From Bdellovibrionales bacterium (GTDB lineage Bacteria; Bdellovibrionota; Bdellovibrionia; Bdellovibrionales; UBA1609): 11,934 bases of DNA. Positions within the stretch are counted from its first letter, which is position 1. Each line of letters opens with the position of its first letter. Made by a program: the position numbers and the translations under genes. The stretch spans positions 1 through 11,934 of the forward strand of contig DAIDJH010000022.1 of the NCBI GenBank assembly GCA_027451425.1, written 5' to 3'. Shown here piece by piece: positions 64 through 10,699 of this stretch. The notes under the pieces are model-generated. The model did not search any database. It saw nothing but the letters and a program-made list of their open reading frames with translations, and was not told where the DNA came from.

Positions 64-1266
64 ATGAAAATCGATGTGGGTGACATTGAAGCCGCGCGTG
101 AACGCATAGCGGGAGTGGCTAATCGAACTCCTGTTGAACACTCTTCAACAGCGAGCCGTCTACTGGGTGTTGAGGCCTATTTTAAATTTGAAAATTTGCA
201 GCGAACCGGCAGTTTCAAAATCCGCGGAGCTCTCAATAAAATTTCAACACTTTCGGACGCCGAAAAAAAACGCGGTGTGATCGCGGCTTCGGCAGGCAAC
301 CACGCACAAGGGGTCGCGCTCAGTTCGACTCTCTTGGGAGTAAAGTCGACAATCGTAATGCCGAAGACGTCTTCTATTGTAAAACAAGAGGCAACTCGCA
401 ATTACGGAGCGCAGGTTGTTTTAGAGGGCGATATTTACGACGAAGCCTATCAGCATGCCCGAATACTTGAAAAGAACACAGGCGCAATTTACATTCACGC
501 CTTCGAAGATCCATTTATAGTGGCAGGCCAAGGTACGATCGGACTTGAAATATTCGAAGATCTCCCCGAAGTCGACTCGGTTGTTGTCGCGATTGGCGGC
601 GGCGGTTTGATCTCGGGGATTGCGACGGCCCTCAAGGCGCGGCGACCGTCTGTTCAAATTTTTGGAGCAGTCGCGGCAAACGCGCCTGCAATGGCTGAAA
701 TGTTTCGCGGGCAAACTCCCACAAAGCGTTCGTCGTATATGTCGATCGCTGACGGTATAGCCGTTAAAACGCCGAGTGAAGCGATGCTTCAGAATTTTAT
801 CAAACCGCTCGTCGATGACGTGGTGACCGTAAACGAAGATGACATCGCAGAGTCGATCGTGTTTCTTCTCGAGCGAACGAAAGCCGTGGCTGAGGGGTCA
901 GGCGCCATAACATTTGCGGCCGCCAAGCAGTTAGGGGCGCGGTTAGGCAAAAAAACATGTTTTGTCGTTGGCGGCGGCAATATTGATCTTACGCTCATGG
1001 GCGAAATTTTAGATCGTGGGCTCACTCGCAATGGGCGTATGACGCGAATTTCTGTTGTGGTGGATGATCGTCCGGGCATGCTTCATCGGCTCACCAAAGT
1101 GGTTTCGGGGAGCGGGGCTAATATCTTACAGGTAGAACATGACCGCATCGACCCAATCTTGCAAATCCGCGAAACGCGCATTTCGTTTATTCTAGAGACA
1201 AAAAATCGCGAGCACATTGCTGAGATTCGCGAAGCGCTTGCGCGCGAAGGCGTGCGGATTTTATAA
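64..1266 (+). CDS. ilvA: Threonine ammonia-lyase (threonine deaminase) with C-terminal ACT domain
   Basis: This PLP enzyme of fold type II deaminates threonine (and serine) to 2-oxobutyrate (or pyruvate) and ammonia in the cytoplasm. Lys52 in SFKIRGA is the expected Schiff-base lysine. SAGNHAQG (76-83) is the substrate/PLP loop, and IGGGGLISG (177-185) is the glycine loop that holds the PLP phosphate. GGGNID (303-308) is near the end of the catalytic domain. Residues about 327-400 form one ACT-type regulatory domain (ISVVVDDRPGML...). At 400 aa it matches the medium-length family (TdcB-like core plus one ACT domain), not the roughly 510-aa E. coli IlvA with two regulatory repeats. The ACT domain suggests amino-acid feedback control. 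The start is supported by the adjacent promoter and the family N-terminus. It converges on the hyuB-like gene with a 12-nt gap. A biosynthetic role (isoleucine) or a catabolic role is possible; no other ilv genes are present. Confidence 0.93.
   Translation: MKIDVGDIEAARERIAGVANRTPVEHSSTASRLLGVEAYFKFENLQRTGSFKIRGALNKISTLSDAEKKRGVIAASAGNHAQGVALSSTLLGVKSTIVMPKTSSIVKQEATRNYGAQVVLEGDIYDEAYQHARILEKNTGAIYIHAFEDPFIVAGQGTIGLEIFEDLPEVDSVVVAIGGGGLISGIATALKARRPSVQIFGAVAANAPAMAEMFRGQTPTKRSSYMSIADGIAVKTPSEAMLQNFIKPLVDDVVTVNEDDIAESIVFLLERTKAVAEGSGAITFAAAKQLGARLGKKTCFVVGGGNIDLTLMGEILDRGLTRNGRMTRISVVVDDRPGMLHRLTKVVSGSGANILQVEHDRIDPILQIRETRISFILETKNREHIAEIREALAREGVRIL
1241..1262 (+). terminator. possible weak intrinsic terminator at the ilvA 3' end
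   Basis: CGCGCG (1241-1246) can pair with CGTGCG (1251-1256), including one G-U pair, around an AAGG tetraloop. This is followed by GATTTT. The structure lies inside the last codons of ilvA, and the gap to the convergent gene is only 12 nt. The T-tract is short and interrupted, so this is a tentative call. Confidence 0.3.
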
Positions 1267-1278
1267 AAAGAAATTTAT

Positions 1279-2772
1279 TTATTCATCGACGCCGTATCCG
1301 CCTCCGCCGGCGGTTAAAATCGTTACAATATCGCCTGGGGATAGGGTCATTTTGCCAAACAACGGGAGTGTGGTTTTTTTGCCCGCCGCAGGACCGCTGC
1401 TGGAGCCCACGTGCTGCACTACAATTTCAGAATCCTGACTGTTTTTGCCGCCGGCCATCCCGTCCGGTTTGCGCGGCGGTTTGAGAAAAGTCCACGATAT
1501 GGTGGCCGCATCGAGTACTTTAAAAGATTGAGCGGCACCATGACCGCCTGGAAACTTTCCCTGCCCAGCCGAATTTGCGCGAAACCCGCAATGAATGAAT
1601 TGAATCGGAAACTTGCGCTCCAACAATTCAATTGAATGCGGGAGAACGAATCTTCGCCACGGGTAGGCGCCATCAAGGCCCGGGCCATGGCTGGTGGCAC
1701 CAACCCCAACGGGCAGAGAGAAATAATGAGACGCGCCATTTTTAAAATGAATCTCGAGAGAACCATGGCTTGGGCCACTCATCGCCCACCCCAACTTCGG
1801 ATCAATACGGCTCAGTGCGAGCGACACGGCATTGCCGAGAAAGTTGATGCCATCGGTGTGACCGAGATAAACCGGTCGCGGAAAAGTGGAGTTAACGAGG
1901 CTGCCTTTGGGAGCTTTAATTTCAAAACGCGAAAGTACGCCCGTGTTAATGGGAATGTCACGTTTCATAAGGCTGATGAATGTGCCGATGGCCGCTCCCA
2001 TAGTCGAAGAATCAGTGATGAAAACGTTTTTTCCAGGCGTCGTGCCGGTAAAGTCAAACAACACCCGGCCATCGTGTATTTCCGCCTTTAGATGAAGGGA
2101 TTCGGAGTCGCTTATGTCGAGATCGCATTCTCCGACTCCATCCGAGATCTCTTCAAGTTGACGGGCGAATTCGCGCTCACTATTGAGTAAAAACTCACGA
2201 ACATTGGCGCGATCGAAAAGATCACTGTTGAGTTCTTCTTTGAGGTGAGAGCGAAGTTTGAGCAATTGTGCGACCTCGTTCTCAATTCGCGGGATGAAGT
2301 CATTTGGGGTCAGGGGGTGGCTTTTCAGCGCGTCTATTACCGCGGTATTGAATTGTGTACCTTGAGAGACAATCGGAGTGGGTGGGATTCGCAACCCCTC
2401 GTCATCAATTGTTTTCGGTTGGCCAACCTTTGCGGGAAAAGTCAGTCGAGAGGCAATAAGCAACTCCGCTGGTACCTTACCCTTATTGGTGCCGCTTTTT
2501 TTCGTAAGGTGCCCCACCCCCATTACGAGAGTCGGCGAGTTGACCACCGTGCCGCCTGAGTAAGGGTCGCTAGTGAGAGTAATATCGCCGTCGGCCAACT
2601 GTAAATATTTAAAGCTGACTTCTGTGGTTTGAGGCAATGTGCCGATGTCACCGAGAGATTCCGGGCGTAGATAAAGAATTTCAAAATCGACAGTGAGCAA
2701 AGCGGCGCGACGAAATGGTCCCAGAAGGCTGTGACATTTTTCATAAATTCGCGGGCTGGTCAATCGAAGCAT
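1279..2772 (-). CDS. Hydantoinase B/oxoprolinase (HyuB)-family protein, shortened and lacking catalytic-type motifs
   Basis: The family is recognisable from SDPYSGG (68-74, family NDPYxGG), EGLRIPP (125-131), DFTGT (240-244), a GLDG element (365-368), GKFPGGHG (405-412) and the C-terminal AGGGGYG (488-494). HyuB proteins work with HyuA in ATP-dependent opening of hydantoin or 5-oxoproline rings. Here several conserved polar motifs are gone. The SRxHHADxGG segment reads SRLTFPAKVG (108-117), the GGTHLPD element reads GGTVVNSP, and the HTHMTNT region reads AYPWRRF. The N-terminus is about 40 residues shorter than usual (497 aa against roughly 520-600). The reading frame is intact over 497 codons. 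Its ATG overlaps the end of the upstream HyuA-like gene by 13 nt and has an SD (CGGAG, 5-nt spacing), so the two are probably translationally coupled. Membership in the family is clear; the same enzyme activity is doubtful, and a pseudoenzyme or a very different substrate is likely. Confidence 0.85.
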   Translation of the reverse strand: MLRLTSPRIYEKCHSLLGPFRRAALLTVDFEILYLRPESLGDIGTLPQTTEVSFKYLQLADGDITLTSDPYSGGTVVNSPTLVMGVGHLTKKSGTNKGKVPAELLIASRLTFPAKVGQPKTIDDEGLRIPPTPIVSQGTQFNTAVIDALKSHPLTPNDFIPRIENEVAQLLKLRSHLKEELNSDLFDRANVREFLLNSEREFARQLEEISDGVGECDLDISDSESLHLKAEIHDGRVLFDFTGTTPGKNVFITDSSTMGAAIGTFISLMKRDIPINTGVLSRFEIKAPKGSLVNSTFPRPVYLGHTDGINFLGNAVSLALSRIDPKLGWAMSGPSHGSLEIHFKNGASHYFSLPVGVGATSHGPGLDGAYPWRRFVLPHSIELLERKFPIQFIHCGFRANSAGQGKFPGGHGAAQSFKVLDAATISWTFLKPPRKPDGMAGGKNSQDSEIVVQHVGSSSGPAAGKKTTLPLFGKMTLSPGDIVTILTAGGGGYGVDE

Positions 2773-4154
2773 GGTGACTCCGATAAATCATCGATCAAGC
2801 GAGCTCGCAATGGTTTGGCAAGCGTAGCGGCAAGCGGTCCACAAATGAGAAGCTCATTGACGGCGTTTGAATCGGCAAGGTTTACGCGGATTTCATCGCG
2901 CAATATTTCGCAACCGAGGTTGAACAGTTGGTCGCCGAGTTCCTCATCGCTCAACGACTGAGCTTGAGAAAAAATTCGTTTATATACTGAAAGCTGCTCT
3001 TTAAATTTTTGAAGCCCGCGCCCATTGCGCGGATCTGAAACTCGTGCGGCGACAGCTTCATCTTGCGGATCGATCTTTAGGGCAATTAAATCAAAAAAAG
3101 TGGGGGTCAAACCTCGGCCAAAAACCATCGGTCCGGGATCGTAAGAGGCAATTTCTGATGAAAATCCGATTGGCGTCATAAAGTTCTTTGAAAGAAGAGT
3201 GAGGGGGTGAATTCTGGGCAGAAAAAATGCGGGTGCCGAGATCGCGACGGGGCCGAACATTGACAGCCATGTGCTTTGCCGTCTCTTGCCGCCGTGGAGT
3301 AAGGCAAAGCCGTCGACACAAGCGTGAAATAGTGGCGAACTGCGAGCGAATTTATCAGCTAATCGGTCGTAATATTGGTTGCCGGCTTGAAGCAGAGACA
3401 CTCGTCCATTTAGGACGTCGTCCAAAGGGAATTTTCCGATTGAAATTACCCCATTCGAACTGAGCCGGGGCTCGAAAATGGCCTGGATTTTTTTGAGCTG
3501 AGAGGCGAATTGTTCAAATACATAAGCGTTGAGTATGGCGCTCCAAAACCGAGCCTTTTCGTCAACGGATTCCGCCTCAAGCGTTTCGTGGGGCACGACT
3601 TGCGAGCTCAAATGAACGCGAAAGCCTTTTGATTCCAGAAATTCTTTGGCCCTCTGTTCGTTTTCACTGTTCAACATTGAGTGTAAAAAGCAAATCGCCA
3701 CGTTTTTAATTTGATTCATTTGGAGTTTGGCGGCGAGGAATTCCATCTCCGTCAAATCAACCGCTTTTTCGACCTGGCCACTTGCGTTTACGCGTTCGGT
3801 GACCCCGAAAAACAAATCACGCTCGATGGGCATTGAATGGCGTCGCGGCACGCTCGTGAAATATGGCGTTTTGATGGGGGCCGTCATCTCCAGCCAGTTT
3901 TCAAACCCTGACGTGATAAGTACGGCGGCTTCTCCGCCGTAATTTTTTATCGCCAAGCGATAAGGCAAATCCGTATAGAGGCGTAGGTTCCCGATATCCC
4001 TTAAGTTGAGCTCTTGCAAAATTGAGCCAAGCATCGACTCGACGTTCATTTGCGGATAAAAATATTGCCGCTTGAGTTGCGACCGATCAGCTTCGTTATA
4101 ACCGACAAGGTCGGCGAGATGATCGCGAAGATGCAATCCGATTGACCAGGACAT
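2760..4154 (-). CDS. Hydantoinase A/oxoprolinase (HyuA)-family protein, degenerate, without ATPase motifs
   Basis: Family signatures are NVAICFLHSMLN (151-162, family VAVCFLHSYLN), the run from LSSQVVP (182-188) to LNAYV (208-212), and DPGPMVFGRGLTPTFFD (339-355, family DPGPACYGRGGTxPTxTD). Normal HyuA is an ASKHA-fold ATPase of about 650-700 aa; this one has 464. The N-terminal phosphate loop (DxGGTxTDLV) aligns with LHLRDHLADLV (7-17). The SGPAGG motif aligns with LQAGNQY (255-261), and FDMGGTSTDVALI aligns with HACVDGFALLHGG (277-289). The later IHTVGAGGGS aligns with IHPLTLLSKN (315-324). All glycine-rich nucleotide-binding elements are therefore lost while the scaffold persists. A modest SD (AGGA, 8 nt before the ATG) supports the start. 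It is divergent from cmk with only 26 nt between start codons. ATP hydrolysis is unlikely; the function is unknown. Confidence 0.8.
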   Translation of the reverse strand: MSWSIGLHLRDHLADLVGYNEADRSQLKRQYFYPQMNVESMLGSILQELNLRDIGNLRLYTDLPYRLAIKNYGGEAAVLITSGFENWLEMTAPIKTPYFTSVPRRHSMPIERDLFFGVTERVNASGQVEKAVDLTEMEFLAAKLQMNQIKNVAICFLHSMLNSENEQRAKEFLESKGFRVHLSSQVVPHETLEAESVDEKARFWSAILNAYVFEQFASQLKKIQAIFEPRLSSNGVISIGKFPLDDVLNGRVSLLQAGNQYYDRLADKFARSSPLFHACVDGFALLHGGKRRQSTWLSMFGPVAISAPAFFLPRIHPLTLLSKNFMTPIGFSSEIASYDPGPMVFGRGLTPTFFDLIALKIDPQDEAVAARVSDPRNGRGLQKFKEQLSVYKRIFSQAQSLSDEELGDQLFNLGCEILRDEIRVNLADSNAVNELLICGPLAATLAKPLRARLIDDLSESPCFD

Positions 4155-4171
4155 GGGTCTGATCCTATTTT
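4142..4171 (+). promoter_or_regulatory. probable cmk promoter, near-leaderless
   Basis: TTGACC (4142-4147, 5/6 match to the -35 consensus) and TATTTT (4166-4171, 4/6 match to -10) are separated by 18 nt. The start would fall at about 4178, only about 3 nt before the cmk ATG, which has no SD. The -35 lies inside the first codons of the divergent HyuA-like gene. The AT-rich stretch at 4166-4178 also offers a TAAAAT -10-like element on the minus strand for that gene, but I found no good partner -35 for it. Confidence 0.45.
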
Positions 4172-4180
4172 AAATTTTCT

Positions 4181-4867
4181 ATGCGGTCAGCATTGATTAT
4201 TGTCACTATAGATGGTCCCGCAGCTTCGGGCAAAACATCCGTGAGTCGGTTGATTGCTTCACGGCGTGGGTGGGCCTGGGTATCGACGGGTGCGTTCTAC
4301 CGCGGCCTTGCGTATGTGGCGTCGCGCGAGGGCATTGCGGTGAATGATGAGCTTGCGTTAGCAAAGCTTTGCTTGTCACCAATTTGGCGGGTTCAAATGG
4401 GCGAAGACCGAACCCGAGTGTATTTGCACGACGAAGACGTGACTGACGAAATTTACTCTGAAGAAATCGGGGCGGGGGCGAGTTTGGTAAGCCGATTTCC
4501 AAAAGTTCGGGCGAACTTATTGACGGCTCAGCGCGCTTGCGCGAACAGTATCAGTGGATTGGTAGCCGAAGGTCGAGATTGCGGCACCGTCGTATTCCCG
4601 AAGGCACAAGTGAAGTTCTACTTGACGGCAGGAACGCTGGATCGGGCTGAACGGCGCGCCCGCCAACAGGGCGGCAATGTTGAAGAAATGCGCCAGGCGC
4701 AGGTTAAACGCGACCACCAGGATAGCTCCCGTCAAACGGCGCCTATGCAGATCCCGTCGCTCGCGCATGTTGTAGACACGACCTCTATGACGCTGGACCA
4801 AGTGGTTGAACAAGTTGACGCGATTATAGTGAAAGAGCTTGCCGAACAACACCTCTCACACTTATAA
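4181..4867 (+). CDS. cmk: Cytidylate (CMP/dCMP) kinase
   Basis: It phosphorylates CMP and dCMP to the diphosphates using ATP, in the cytoplasmic pyrimidine salvage and nucleotide supply pathway. The P-loop is GPAASGKTS (12-20). STGAFYR (35-41) corresponds to the nucleotide-binding DSGAxYR segment. AEGRDCGTVVFP (129-140) is the family hallmark (E. coli ADGRDMGTVVFP). RAERRARQ (155-162) lies in the lid region, and KRDHQDSSRQTAP (176-188) matches the C-terminal RDxxDxxRxxAP signature. The length of 228 aa is normal. The ATG is one or two residues before the first beta strand, as in homologues, and has no SD. It is followed by rpsA, the cmk-rpsA order common in many bacteria. Confidence 0.95.
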   Translation: MRSALIIVTIDGPAASGKTSVSRLIASRRGWAWVSTGAFYRGLAYVASREGIAVNDELALAKLCLSPIWRVQMGEDRTRVYLHDEDVTDEIYSEEIGAGASLVSRFPKVRANLLTAQRACANSISGLVAEGRDCGTVVFPKAQVKFYLTAGTLDRAERRARQQGGNVEEMRQAQVKRDHQDSSRQTAPMQIPSLAHVVDTTSMTLDQVVEQVDAIIVKELAEQHLSHL

Positions 4868-4961: not shown

Positions 4962-6776
4962 ATGACTGATAGTAATAAAGCACAAAAATCAAAGGCGAAG
5001 GCGGCTTTGGAAGCGGTGTTGGCCGCGTTAGATGCTAATGATGACCAAGTTCCAGCGAACCCGAGTTTGTTCGCGTTCGATAAAAAACGTTCCGATGAGT
5101 CTTTTGAAAGACTTTTTAAATCTGAAGTCGATAAAAAGGACTTCAAAGTTGGTGACGTTGTGAACGGTCGAGTCGTCGAAGTTCAAGACGACTATGTGCT
5201 TGTCGATATTAACTATAAAAGTGAAGGCCTGATCCCCATCAGTGAATTTCGTATGGTTGAGGGGGCGCGAAATGTGCAAGTCGGGCAAGACGTTCAAGTG
5301 TACATTGACAAAATTGAAAACGAAAATGGCATGATCGTTTTGTCAAAAGACAAAGCGGATATGCTACGCGCCTGGGATGATATTTCTCGCGCGGCCGAAA
5401 ATGAAGAAGTAATTGAGGGCACGATCATCGCGAAAGTCAAAGGTGGCTTGAGCGTCGACATTGGCGTGAAGGCGTTTTTGCCTGGTAGCCAGATTGACTT
5501 GCGTCCTGTCCGCAATATGGATCAGTACATCGGCAAAACCTATAAATTCAAAGTCATTAAATTCAATAAACGCCGGGGCAATATCGTTCTTTCACGCCGC
5601 GCGCTTCTCGAACAAGAACGAGAGAGCTTACGAACGCAAACGCTGGATTCAATGAAAGAAGGATCCGTCGTTCGTGGTATTGTGAAAAATATCACGGATT
5701 ACGGAGCGTTCATTGATCTTGGCGGTATGGACGGCCTGTTACACATTACTGATATGAGCTGGGGCCGCATCAAGCATCCGTCCGAAGTGCTCAACGTCGG
5801 TGATGAAATTGAAGTCATGGTTCTCAAATACGACAACTCGAAAGAGCGCGTGAGCCTTGGTCTCAAACAATTGAAACAAGATCCGTGGGCGAAAGTCGCG
5901 GCGGAATTTGTGCCTGGTCAAAAAGTCAAAGGCCGCATTGTGAGTCTTACCGAGTACGGCGCATTTGTTGAATTAGCTGAAGGGGTTGAGGGCCTCATTC
6001 ACGTTTCGGAGATGAGCTGGACAAAGCGGGTGAAGCACCCGAATCAAATCTTGAAAGCTGACGAGGAAGTTGAAGTTCAAGTTTTGGAGGTCGACCAAAC
6101 CAACCGTCGCATCAGCCTTGGCTTGAAGCAACTCCAACCAAATCCATGGCTAGAGCTCAAAGATTCTTATCCGCCAGGTACAATTATCGAAGGCGAAGTT
6201 AAATCGGTAACCGATTTTGGTGTATTTGTGGGCGTCGAAGAAGGCATAGACGGTCTTGTGCATGTCTCCGATTTTTCGTGGACAAAGCGAGTTAACCATC
6301 CGTCGGAACTTTACCAAAAAGGTGAACGAATTCGCGCTGTGGTATTGGGTGTCGATATTGAGAACGAACGGTTTAGCCTTGGGGTTAAACAACTTGAGGC
6401 GGACCCGTGGTCAACTGTCGATCAAAAATTCCCGATTGGCTCACAACACGATGTAAAAGTTGTGAAAGGCGCTGATTTTGGAGTGTTTGTGGAACTGGCC
6501 GAAAACGTCGAAGGTTTGATCCATATTTCAGAACTGTCGACCAAACGCGTGGAGAAACCAGAAGACGTGGTGAAGGTTGGGGACGCGATTCGAGCGGAAG
6601 TCATATCGATCGATAAAGACGCGCGCAAAATCGCTTTGAGTGCCAAGCTCGTGAAATTGCGAGAGCAAAAGGCCGACGTTGCGGATTACGTCAAGAAAGC
6701 TACGACGTCGTCCAAAACCAGCTTTGGCGAGCTTTTTGGTGACGCGCTTAAGGACGTGGCAAAAAAACAAGAATAG
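4962..6776 (+). CDS. rpsA: 30S ribosomal protein S1
   Basis: S1 binds mRNA at the 30S platform and helps unfold structured translation start regions. Six S1/OB-fold repeats can be read, at about residues 61-129, 148-214, 232-302, 317-389, 404-476 and 491-561. The last four carry the RNA-binding pattern DYGAF/EYGAF/DFGVF, then GL(L/I/V)H(I/V)(S/T)(D/E). Repeats 1-2 are divergent, as in E. coli S1, where they contact the ribosome. It is 604 aa against 557 in E. coli; the extra length is mainly a charged, Ala/Lys/Asp-rich N-terminal extension of about 60 residues. The start is ambiguous. ATG 4962 is 12 nt from AGGAGG, while an in-frame TTG at 4956 has better spacing (6 nt) and would add two residues. 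sppA follows after 21 nt. Confidence 0.96.
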   Translation: MTDSNKAQKSKAKAALEAVLAALDANDDQVPANPSLFAFDKKRSDESFERLFKSEVDKKDFKVGDVVNGRVVEVQDDYVLVDINYKSEGLIPISEFRMVEGARNVQVGQDVQVYIDKIENENGMIVLSKDKADMLRAWDDISRAAENEEVIEGTIIAKVKGGLSVDIGVKAFLPGSQIDLRPVRNMDQYIGKTYKFKVIKFNKRRGNIVLSRRALLEQERESLRTQTLDSMKEGSVVRGIVKNITDYGAFIDLGGMDGLLHITDMSWGRIKHPSEVLNVGDEIEVMVLKYDNSKERVSLGLKQLKQDPWAKVAAEFVPGQKVKGRIVSLTEYGAFVELAEGVEGLIHVSEMSWTKRVKHPNQILKADEEVEVQVLEVDQTNRRISLGLKQLQPNPWLELKDSYPPGTIIEGEVKSVTDFGVFVGVEEGIDGLVHVSDFSWTKRVNHPSELYQKGERIRAVVLGVDIENERFSLGVKQLEADPWSTVDQKFPIGSQHDVKVVKGADFGVFVELAENVEGLIHISELSTKRVEKPEDVVKVGDAIRAEVISIDKDARKIALSAKLVKLREQKADVADYVKKATTSSKTSFGELFGDALKDVAKKQE

Positions 6777-9673: not shown

Positions 9674-10699
9674 TTAATTTCGAGCCTCAGCGCTAACGTT
9701 AAGCGCAGGAGCTTTTTCCGGGTTTGCATCCGGGCCGAGTGGTCCCCAGACCTCCGATAAGATCTTAAATTGCCCGTCCGGATTTCGACGCGCGTACAGG
9801 GTTTTTTCGCCAGTGTCATCTTTGCCTGACGAATGATACTCCTGAATGAAATGAAAAATTGCCTGATTTTCATGTATGAGAACCAGCGGATCGCGCACCG
9901 TTACGTGGATGGTTTTGTACCTTTTGTTTAACCAGCTCTTATAATTGCGCCACTGCCTTTTATTCATTTTTAGCGATTTGTAACGGCCCTTGAAGTCGTG
10001 CGCATAGTGATCCATGTACGCGTCGAGATTTTTCGTCTCCCAATCGTGTCGCCATGATTCAAGCCAGGTGAGTGCCGTTTGCCGGGTTTTTGCCAATTGT
10101 TCAGGGGTCACATAATTCACATGATCAATAATAATCACAGGCGTGCGTTTGAGGGTCACAAGTGGTGTCAGCTTTCGAATGGTGTCGTTACGAACAACGA
10201 CGCATCCCTCAGAGCCTCGGCGAAGCGTTTTTGTTTCGGGGATGGCGTGCAGCCAGATTCCATAACCGGATTTACCTTCAAAGCGATCGAAAAAATTCGG
10301 GTAATTGAGCGTGAAGGCGCGAATGCCGTAGTTTTCGTAGTTCACTTTCGCCATCTCGCGACGCTCTTGAATAAAGTAAATTCCAACAGGGGTTCGGTCA
10401 TCGCCACTCACGGCTTTGTCGCCGCTATTTTTGCCTATATCCATTGGATAATAGGCTATTAGTACGGGTACTCCGTTTTTGTGCCCCCAGACAGACAACG
10501 TGCGATTTTGTTTGTCGGCGAGAAATACATATTTTGGGTGAAACGACCCTCCATCAACAGCAACCAAATTATCCGGCACCAAATGAGACGGTGGAGCGAC
10601 GGGGGTTGGATCTGGTGGCTGCGGCTGAGTTGTGTCGGCAGCGGCATAGGCGTATCCGCATCCCAAAATGAGAAAAAAAAGCGCAATCGACTTTCGCAT
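9674..10699 (-). CDS. Periplasmic L,D-carboxypeptidase/transpeptidase-fold enzyme with NTF2-like domain (Csd6/Pgp2/Bd1075-like)
   Basis: An N-terminal export signal (1-19, YAYA|A) is followed by a Pro-rich linker (25-40). The YkuD catalytic domain spans about 55-193, with WLHAIPE giving His151 and GSEGCVVVRN giving the nucleophile Cys166 (family HG...SxGC). Residues about 205-318 form an NTF2-like domain (SWRHDWETKNLDAYMDHYAHDF, 215-236, is typical). This signal-YkuD-NTF2 architecture and length (341 aa) match Helicobacter Csd6, Campylobacter Pgp2 and Bdellovibrio Bd1075. Those trim tetrapeptide stems and set helical or curved cell shape; in Bd1075 the NTF2 domain directs localisation. A true 3-3 crosslinking transpeptidase is the alternative. 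ILGC at 11-14 is a poor lipobox. There is no SD; a promoter starting about 6 nt upstream is likely. It is divergent from fliL. Confidence 0.88.
   Translation of the reverse strand: MRKSIALFFLILGCGYAYAAADTTQPQPPDPTPVAPPSHLVPDNLVAVDGGSFHPKYVFLADKQNRTLSVWGHKNGVPVLIAYYPMDIGKNSGDKAVSGDDRTPVGIYFIQERREMAKVNYENYGIRAFTLNYPNFFDRFEGKSGYGIWLHAIPETKTLRRGSEGCVVVRNDTIRKLTPLVTLKRTPVIIIDHVNYVTPEQLAKTRQTALTWLESWRHDWETKNLDAYMDHYAHDFKGRYKSLKMNKRQWRNYKSWLNKRYKTIHVTVRDPLVLIHENQAIFHFIQEYHSSGKDDTGEKTLYARRNPDGQFKILSEVWGPLGPDANPEKAPALNVSAEARN
9686..9717 (+). terminator. Probable intrinsic terminator of the rpsA/sppA-to-small-protein operon
   Basis: GCGCT (9690-9694) pairs with AGCGC (9702-9706) around a 7-nt loop. 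It can be extended past a small internal loop by CTC (9686-9688) with GAG (9709-9711), then CTTTTT (9712-9717). On the plus strand this has the form of a rho-independent terminator about 30 nt after the 67-aa gene. It lies wholly inside the last codons of the convergent cell-wall gene. A second weak inverted repeat, AACCGG (9642-9647) with CCGGTT (9668-9673), precedes TTAATTT. Confidence 0.45.

Follow-up and report, generated by a model that had tools for sequence, protein, structure and literature searches.

A conserved HyuA-HyuB-like pair of the Bdellovibrionales without ATP-phosphate and metal-site motifs: a probable pseudoenzyme complex

Introduction

In the bacterial order Bdellovibrionales, a pair of adjoining genes is found whose products are related to HyuA and HyuB and are referred to here as A' and B'. 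The two proteins probably constitute a pseudoenzyme complex that has been inherited vertically, goes back to an ATP-dependent HyuA-HyuB enzyme and acts through binding, not catalysis, as a scaffold or a ligand sensor. As judged from alignments and motif searches, both phosphate motifs and the metal-ligand set are gone, while the genes have been kept together under purifying selection. Since catalytic residues have been lost in both halves and the pair has nevertheless been kept intact at one site, its job is probably not catalysis.

A dead paralogue is often found alongside a live enzyme. In the present case, the catalytic residues are missing from both subunits of a single enzyme complex, and among the 140 genomes of the order a live HyuA domain was found in only one, yet the pair is kept at one chromosomal place. 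The order that keeps it includes the model predator Bdellovibrio. Within the open-licence literature, no paper was found on hydantoinase, oxoprolinase or hydantoin utilization in Bdellovibrio, nor on hydantoinase pseudoenzymes, and the available main text of a transposon-sequencing paper (PMC6561027) contains neither the word "hydantoin" nor a "Bd10" number.

The Gene Pair and Its Locus

The window, that is, the whole stretch of 11,934 nucleotides analysed, is contig C22 of a genome assembly that is 76% complete (1.87 Mb in 328 contigs). The pair and its closest neighbours are arranged as follows.

64..1266, plus strand: ilvA, threonine ammonia-lyase with an ACT domain; frequent convergent neighbour, outside the complex
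1279..2772, minus strand: B', HyuB homologue of 497 aa (open reading frame, Pfam, alignment, profile comparison)
2760..2772, minus strand: 13 bp shared by the end of A' and the start of B' (open reading frame coordinates)
2760..4154, minus strand: A', short HyuA homologue of 464 aa with the ASKHA core and an inserted alpha/beta domain (open reading frame, Pfam, profile comparison)
4181..4867, plus strand: cmk, cytidylate kinase; conserved divergent neighbour, outside the complex

An initial annotation of the window had described A' as an open frame of 464 codons on a recognisable HyuA scaffold, and both statements hold. The profile search that it had proposed gave Hydant_A_N (PF05378) at residues 72-175 with an E-value of 2.6e-13, the sole Pfam match up to E 10; neither Hydantoinase_A (PF01968) nor the C-terminal domains were matched in A' of the window, and PF01968 was detected in one of the 30 members of set A4 (best E 0.0021). 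A profile of 30 A' proteins aligned with one of 15 canonical HyuA proteins over 411 columns (E 5.8e-35), which indicates nearly full-length homology covering the ASKHA core and the inserted domain. The C-terminal end of A' is the strand that bears GGAGP in canonical HyuA. According to the sections of the CapAB report drawn on here (PMC8453981), the alpha+beta domain of CapA spans residues 495-610 and the C-terminal barrel 623-696, so that A' lacks both, and the deficit of about 200 residues noticed earlier is located at the C-terminus.

The homology of B' to HyuB is equally clear from Hydantoinase_B (PF02538, E 3.5e-58), found together with one weak family below its cut-off, and from the comparison of a profile of 23 B' proteins with 13 canonical HyuB proteins, which extends over 462 columns and thus nearly the full length (E 7.3e-67). 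B' is without the N-terminal segment bearing Asp41 (CapB numbering) and without the C-terminal small domain, and ends where the barrel does, at GGGGYG. At locus L042 (genome G043, 5147-6394), B' has shrunk to 415 aa with loss of the GGGGYG end, and the frames in related genomes of the same genus are about as long.

The overlap between the end of A' and the start of B' suggests one transcript with coupled translation. Among 82 adjacent pairs, 29 overlap and 53 are spaced by 0-30 bp, when stop codons are left out and each gene is taken to begin at its earliest possible start. B' adjoins A' on the same strand in 82 of 85 A' loci, and two of the three misses are at contig ends. The third, L202 (G271, 1933-3249), carries an outgroup A' that is split by a stop into frames of 209 and 157 aa beside an open B', and is the only broken main locus among the 85.

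In the window, the pair is surrounded by ilvA, cmk, rpsA and an S49 peptidase gene; farther along, at 9674-10699, lies an L,D-transpeptidase (YkuD) gene with a Cds6-type NTF2-like C-terminal domain. In the loci collected, the pair often sits between ilvA and hisC-cmk: either cmk or hisC lies upstream on the opposite strand in 81 of 85 loci (the remaining four are at contig ends), hisC being the divergent neighbour in 67, and ilvA is found downstream on the opposite strand, within the fetched stretch, in 62. Genomes lacking A' were also searched for cmk, and 17 of these 18 yielded a locus, with flanks of up to 1.5 kb. Four of the 17 (L224, L228, L229 and L231) represent an empty site, in which ilvA leads directly into hisC-cmk-rpsA; in L236, ilvA stands beside cmk and hisC is missing; in the other 12, ilvA fell outside the stretch and the site was not scored. 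In the genus to which the window belongs, the place that relatives commonly fill with hisC-cmk has no hisC (window 4155-4180), and no hisC match over the family cut-off was present in six genomes of this genus. A functional link between the pair and hisC was not taken up, as the gene, a neighbour in so many loci, is missing here. A defence function was also considered and set aside, given that PADLOC returned no match for the A' and B' proteins of the window and of L214 (four proteins).

Loss of the ATP Site in A'

Of the 85 A' loci collected, three with proteins of at most 350 residues (L196, L198 and L202) were dropped, and the remaining 82 were scored against 49 canonical HyuA proteins, a non-random set whose loci were found by HyuB patterns and chosen by length and profile match, and which also includes the pair of G041 (L040) and P0009. 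The positions concerned in the window are listed below.

4110..4133, minus strand: remnant of the gamma-phosphate motif P1, residues 8-15, HLRDHLAD (alignment and motif search)
3312..3329, minus strand: remnant of the beta-phosphate motif P2, residues 276-281, FHACVD (alignment and motif search)
3198..3215, minus strand: position of the GAGGGS loop, now RIHPLT, residues 314-319 (mostly xxQPTx in the family)
3129..3137, minus strand: PGP core of the adenosine motif, kept, residues 340-342 (SYDPGP in the window; motif counts)
3090..3092, minus strand: invariant Asp355, downstream of the adenosine motif (82 of 82 A', 49 of 49 canonical HyuA)
2838..2840, minus strand: Gly439, first Gly of canonical GGAGP (kept in 81 of 82 A')

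The phosphate motifs P1 (DxGGTxTD) and P2 (DxGGT), which mark HyuA, and the GGG loop are intact in none of the 82 A' proteins and in all 49 canonical ones. The four motif losses reported in the initial annotation are real; its replacement for GAGGGS was displaced, since LTLLSKN lies about four residues away from RIHPLT, with which that loop aligns. Its statement that every glycine-rich motif had disappeared goes too far: P1, P2 and GxGGGS are gone, but Asp355, Gly439 and the PGP core remain, the last in 77 of 82 A' proteins (48 of 49 canonical HyuA). The adenosine motif in full, GxxPGP, is present in 45 of 82 A' proteins and in 48 of 49 canonical ones, and SYDPGP in the window has lost the leading Gly.

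An Asp occupies the position of the P1 Asp in two of the 82 proteins and is aligned with the P2 Asp in 17, in otherwise different contexts. The GGT of P1 is mostly replaced by G, E and S (68, 56 and 60 of 82), Q and P stand in place of GGG in 61 and 75, and a Glu follows the P2 remnant in 71. In CapAB, mutation of CapA Asp11 or Asp295, or of any of the four CapB ligands, reduced conversion to at most 0.4% (PMC8453981). From these residues, A' would no longer be able to grip the ATP phosphates or to phosphorylate a substrate; given the conserved PGP core, it may still bind a nucleotide.

Loss of the Metal Site in B'

The initial annotation treated A' as a single protein and missed the loss of the metal site in the adjoining HyuB partner. 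Because this adjacent partner is also without its metal site, the pair is regarded as the unit. The positions of the CapB metal ligands in the window are the following.

2536..2547, minus strand: positions of CapB His99 and Asp102, now Val76 and Ser79 (alignment)
2437..2439, minus strand: position of CapB His124, now Phe112 (alignment)

After the removal of three short proteins (L187, L198 and L206) from 88 collected B' loci, 85 were scored. Asp41, His99, Asp102 and His124 are kept in 0, 3, 14 and 1 of these, respectively, compared with 54, 53, 54 and 54 of 54 canonical HyuB proteins, and no B' combines His99, Asp102 and His124. These three residues are described as fully conserved across the family in the CapB paper (PMC8453981), where the variants D41A, H99A, D102A (given as D101A in the abstract) and H124A showed less than 0.015% conversion. 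B' has presumably lost its hold on the catalytic metal. In B', 44 positions are conserved at 70% or more, 31 of them common to canonical HyuB, including ten polar ones.

Distribution

The survey for orthologues suggested earlier found A' across the order, in 82 of 140 genomes, 63 of 102 high-quality genomes and 29 of 65 genera; B' was found in 86 of 140 genomes. Absences in these counts rest on profile searches of often incomplete assemblies. A separate scan with the B' alignment gave 99 relatives, of which the best 80 were kept. A' occurs alone in one genome (G031), at a contig end, and B' alone in five (G010, G022, G059, G103 and G119), in each of which the contig breaks off at the B' start on the A' side or no more than about 230 bp from it. 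Many genera of the family to which the window belongs are without the pair, which is therefore dispensable in some lineages. Second copies of A' and B' are present in G101 (contig C24) and G102 (contig C172), both of the genus of G043; the copy in G101 is partial and its B' contains stops.

Canonical HyuA (PF01968) was detected within the order in G041 only, a genome that also has A', and the locus L040 of this genome (6646-10517) is the one place in the order where a canonical HyuA-HyuB pair was seen. Across the phylum, the A' profile matches 97 of 368 genomes; the matches beyond the order comprise three genomes of the class, with short proteins, and 12 others, of which 11 have reading frames of 1074-1304 aa and the remaining one has a frame of 316 aa. 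Bdellovibrio bacteriovorus strain kdesi and Pseudobdellovibrio exovorus are among the carriers with a name. The protein of the latter bears the database name "Hydantoin utilization protein", a designation that is not supported by its residues.

Selection and History

The codon-based analysis that had been proposed indicates purifying selection. In the seven closest pairs of genomes (A' identity 0.95-0.98; a single trio of genomes supplies three of the seven), A' has an omega of 0.028-0.063, B' one of 0.016-0.049 and cmk one of 0.013-0.030. Among the 45 pairs listed, omega of A' does not exceed 0.183, although dS is often high or saturated outside the seven closest. In three pairs involving G066 (about 0.71 identity), omega of A' is 0.17-0.18 versus 0.039-0.094 for cmk, hisC and ilvA; A' is accordingly constrained, less tightly than its housekeeping neighbours. 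Both proteins diverge faster than these neighbours, with median distances of 1.47 (A') and 1.52 (B') against 0.47-0.55. No internal stop occurs in the A' matches listed for the order, and a broken A', a scatter of which in close relatives would have pointed to a decaying gene, occurs at a single locus in 85, that of the outgroup G271. The initial proposal of selection on a function without ATP hydrolysis is thereby well supported, the absence of hydrolysis being deduced from the residues.

A quick tree of B proteins (61 rows) separates all 38 sampled B' from the other rows by a single branch with a support of 99; a number of B' branches are long, and long branches may, by the program's own warning, be joined falsely. 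Distances of A' and B' correlate across 43 of the 85 loci (0.93), with a partial correlation of 0.76 given three neighbours, a value reached in none of 2000 permutations. The control partial correlations of A', given the other two neighbours, are 0.52 for ilvA, 0.35 for hisC and -0.22 for cmk, so that the control is not clean, and the correlation fits contact between A' and B' without proving it.

The pair thus consists of enzyme homologues that have lost catalytic residues under purifying selection, as expected of a pseudoenzyme, and the marks of a pseudogene, namely disrupted frames or an omega near 1, are confined to G271 and the second copy in G101.

Interpretation of Function

In the reading considered most probable, A' and B' would still bind each other, ATP-phosphate binding by A' and catalytic metal binding by B' would have been lost, and the complex would work by binding without catalysis, as a scaffold or ligand sensor, its likeliest ligand pocket being what is left of the ATP cleft at the adenosine end. 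Points against this reading are the conserved PGP core, the positions that B' shares with canonical HyuB, the faster divergence of both proteins, the unclean correlation control and the absence of the pair from many genera.

The strongest competitor, which is possible though rather unlikely, is that A'-B' is an active enzyme with a rebuilt ATP- and metal-independent site, formed partly from newly conserved residues. Such residues do exist: in A' (n = 82), Glu at 281 (71), Pro317 (75), Trp296 (67), Glu at 339 (66), Ser298 (65), Gln at 316 (61), Lys143 (59) and Glu at 15 (58), and in B' (n = 85), Pro133 (84) and Tyr56 (74). The remodelled A' loops at P1 and GGG are themselves fairly conserved, which would fit a new active site. 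Against it, however, none of the newly conserved residues that reach 70% in the two alignments is a His, Cys or Asp, and the window departs from the family at several of these places (Asp281, His316, Asp339 and Asp15).

A more far-reaching version of the binding complex, held as a doubtful conjecture, is that a single event near the root of the Bdellovibrionia converted an entire ATP-dependent hydrolase of two subunits into a complex that only binds. Both active centres would have been lost and both proteins shortened, and in the order no catalytic HyuA paralogue was found outside one genome. A small ligand would then be read through the adenosine end of the old ATP cleft and the signal passed on via B'. 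It is given less weight because complete GxxPGP is retained in little more than half of the A' proteins.

It is improbable that A'-B' directly regulate or activate another enzyme, by analogy with the dead paralogue prozyme in trypanosomes. Enzyme-activating dead paralogues are on record (PMC6221367), and the frequent position between ilvA and hisC-cmk could be seen as favourable; the usual partner, however, is absent, as 139 of 140 genomes gave no match to a canonical HyuA domain, and in the genus of the window the pair stays even though hisC is missing there. Decay of A' and B' as pseudogenes caught while still open is highly improbable: the split A' of G271, the broken second copies in G101 and the much shortened B' in the genus of G043 would agree with it, but it is rejected on the low omega of the closest pairs, the open frames and the conserved synteny across the order. 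Equally remote is a misalignment that hides intact ATP-site residues elsewhere, to which the weak alignment around P2 and the 17 aligned Asp residues lend some colour, as DxGG[TS] and GxGGG are found by alignment-free search nowhere in the 82 A' proteins and in all 49 canonical ones.

Comparison with Known Systems

Compared with known systems, the probable pseudoenzyme complex is closest to the N-methylhydantoinase 7HK5 and the CapAB caprolactamase (PDB 6YRA), the best solved relatives by profile comparison. The former is the best solved-structure match (E 5.3e-27 for A', E 3.7e-33 for B') and is a fused protein of 1288 aa with canonical length, whereas the two proteins of the pair are unfused, shortened and devoid of the motifs. 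CapAB, described as two subunits encoded in one operon, and the 5-oxoprolinase/hydantoinase family to which it belongs (PF05378, PF01968 and PF02538) are homologous to A' and B' over nearly the full length; unlike CapAB, the pair lacks P1, P2, the metal ligands, the equivalent of CapA 495-696 and the C-terminal domain of CapB. In CapAB, the subunits are in contact through helix N of CapA and through an omega loop, whose domain is missing from A', and the first CapB helix also takes part in the interface (PMC8453981). The equivalent of helix N precedes the truncation of A', and the first CapB helix falls in the part shortened in B'; with the omega-loop domain missing and this helix region shortened, the A'-B' interface would be at most partly kept.

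Subunits homologous to A' and B' are also found in acetophenone and acetone carboxylases (5L9W, 5SVB and 5M45), which are described as ATP-dependent and contain additional subunits. Within the same phylum, outside the class, fused hydantoinase-like proteins of 1162-1287 aa were read in five (G164, G165, G169, G191 and G261) of the twelve genomes with such matches. In contrast to A', all five contain DxGGT at both P1 and P2; of the metal-site motifs, [ED]xxDFS and HxxDxG are likewise present in all five and GGTHLPD in four.
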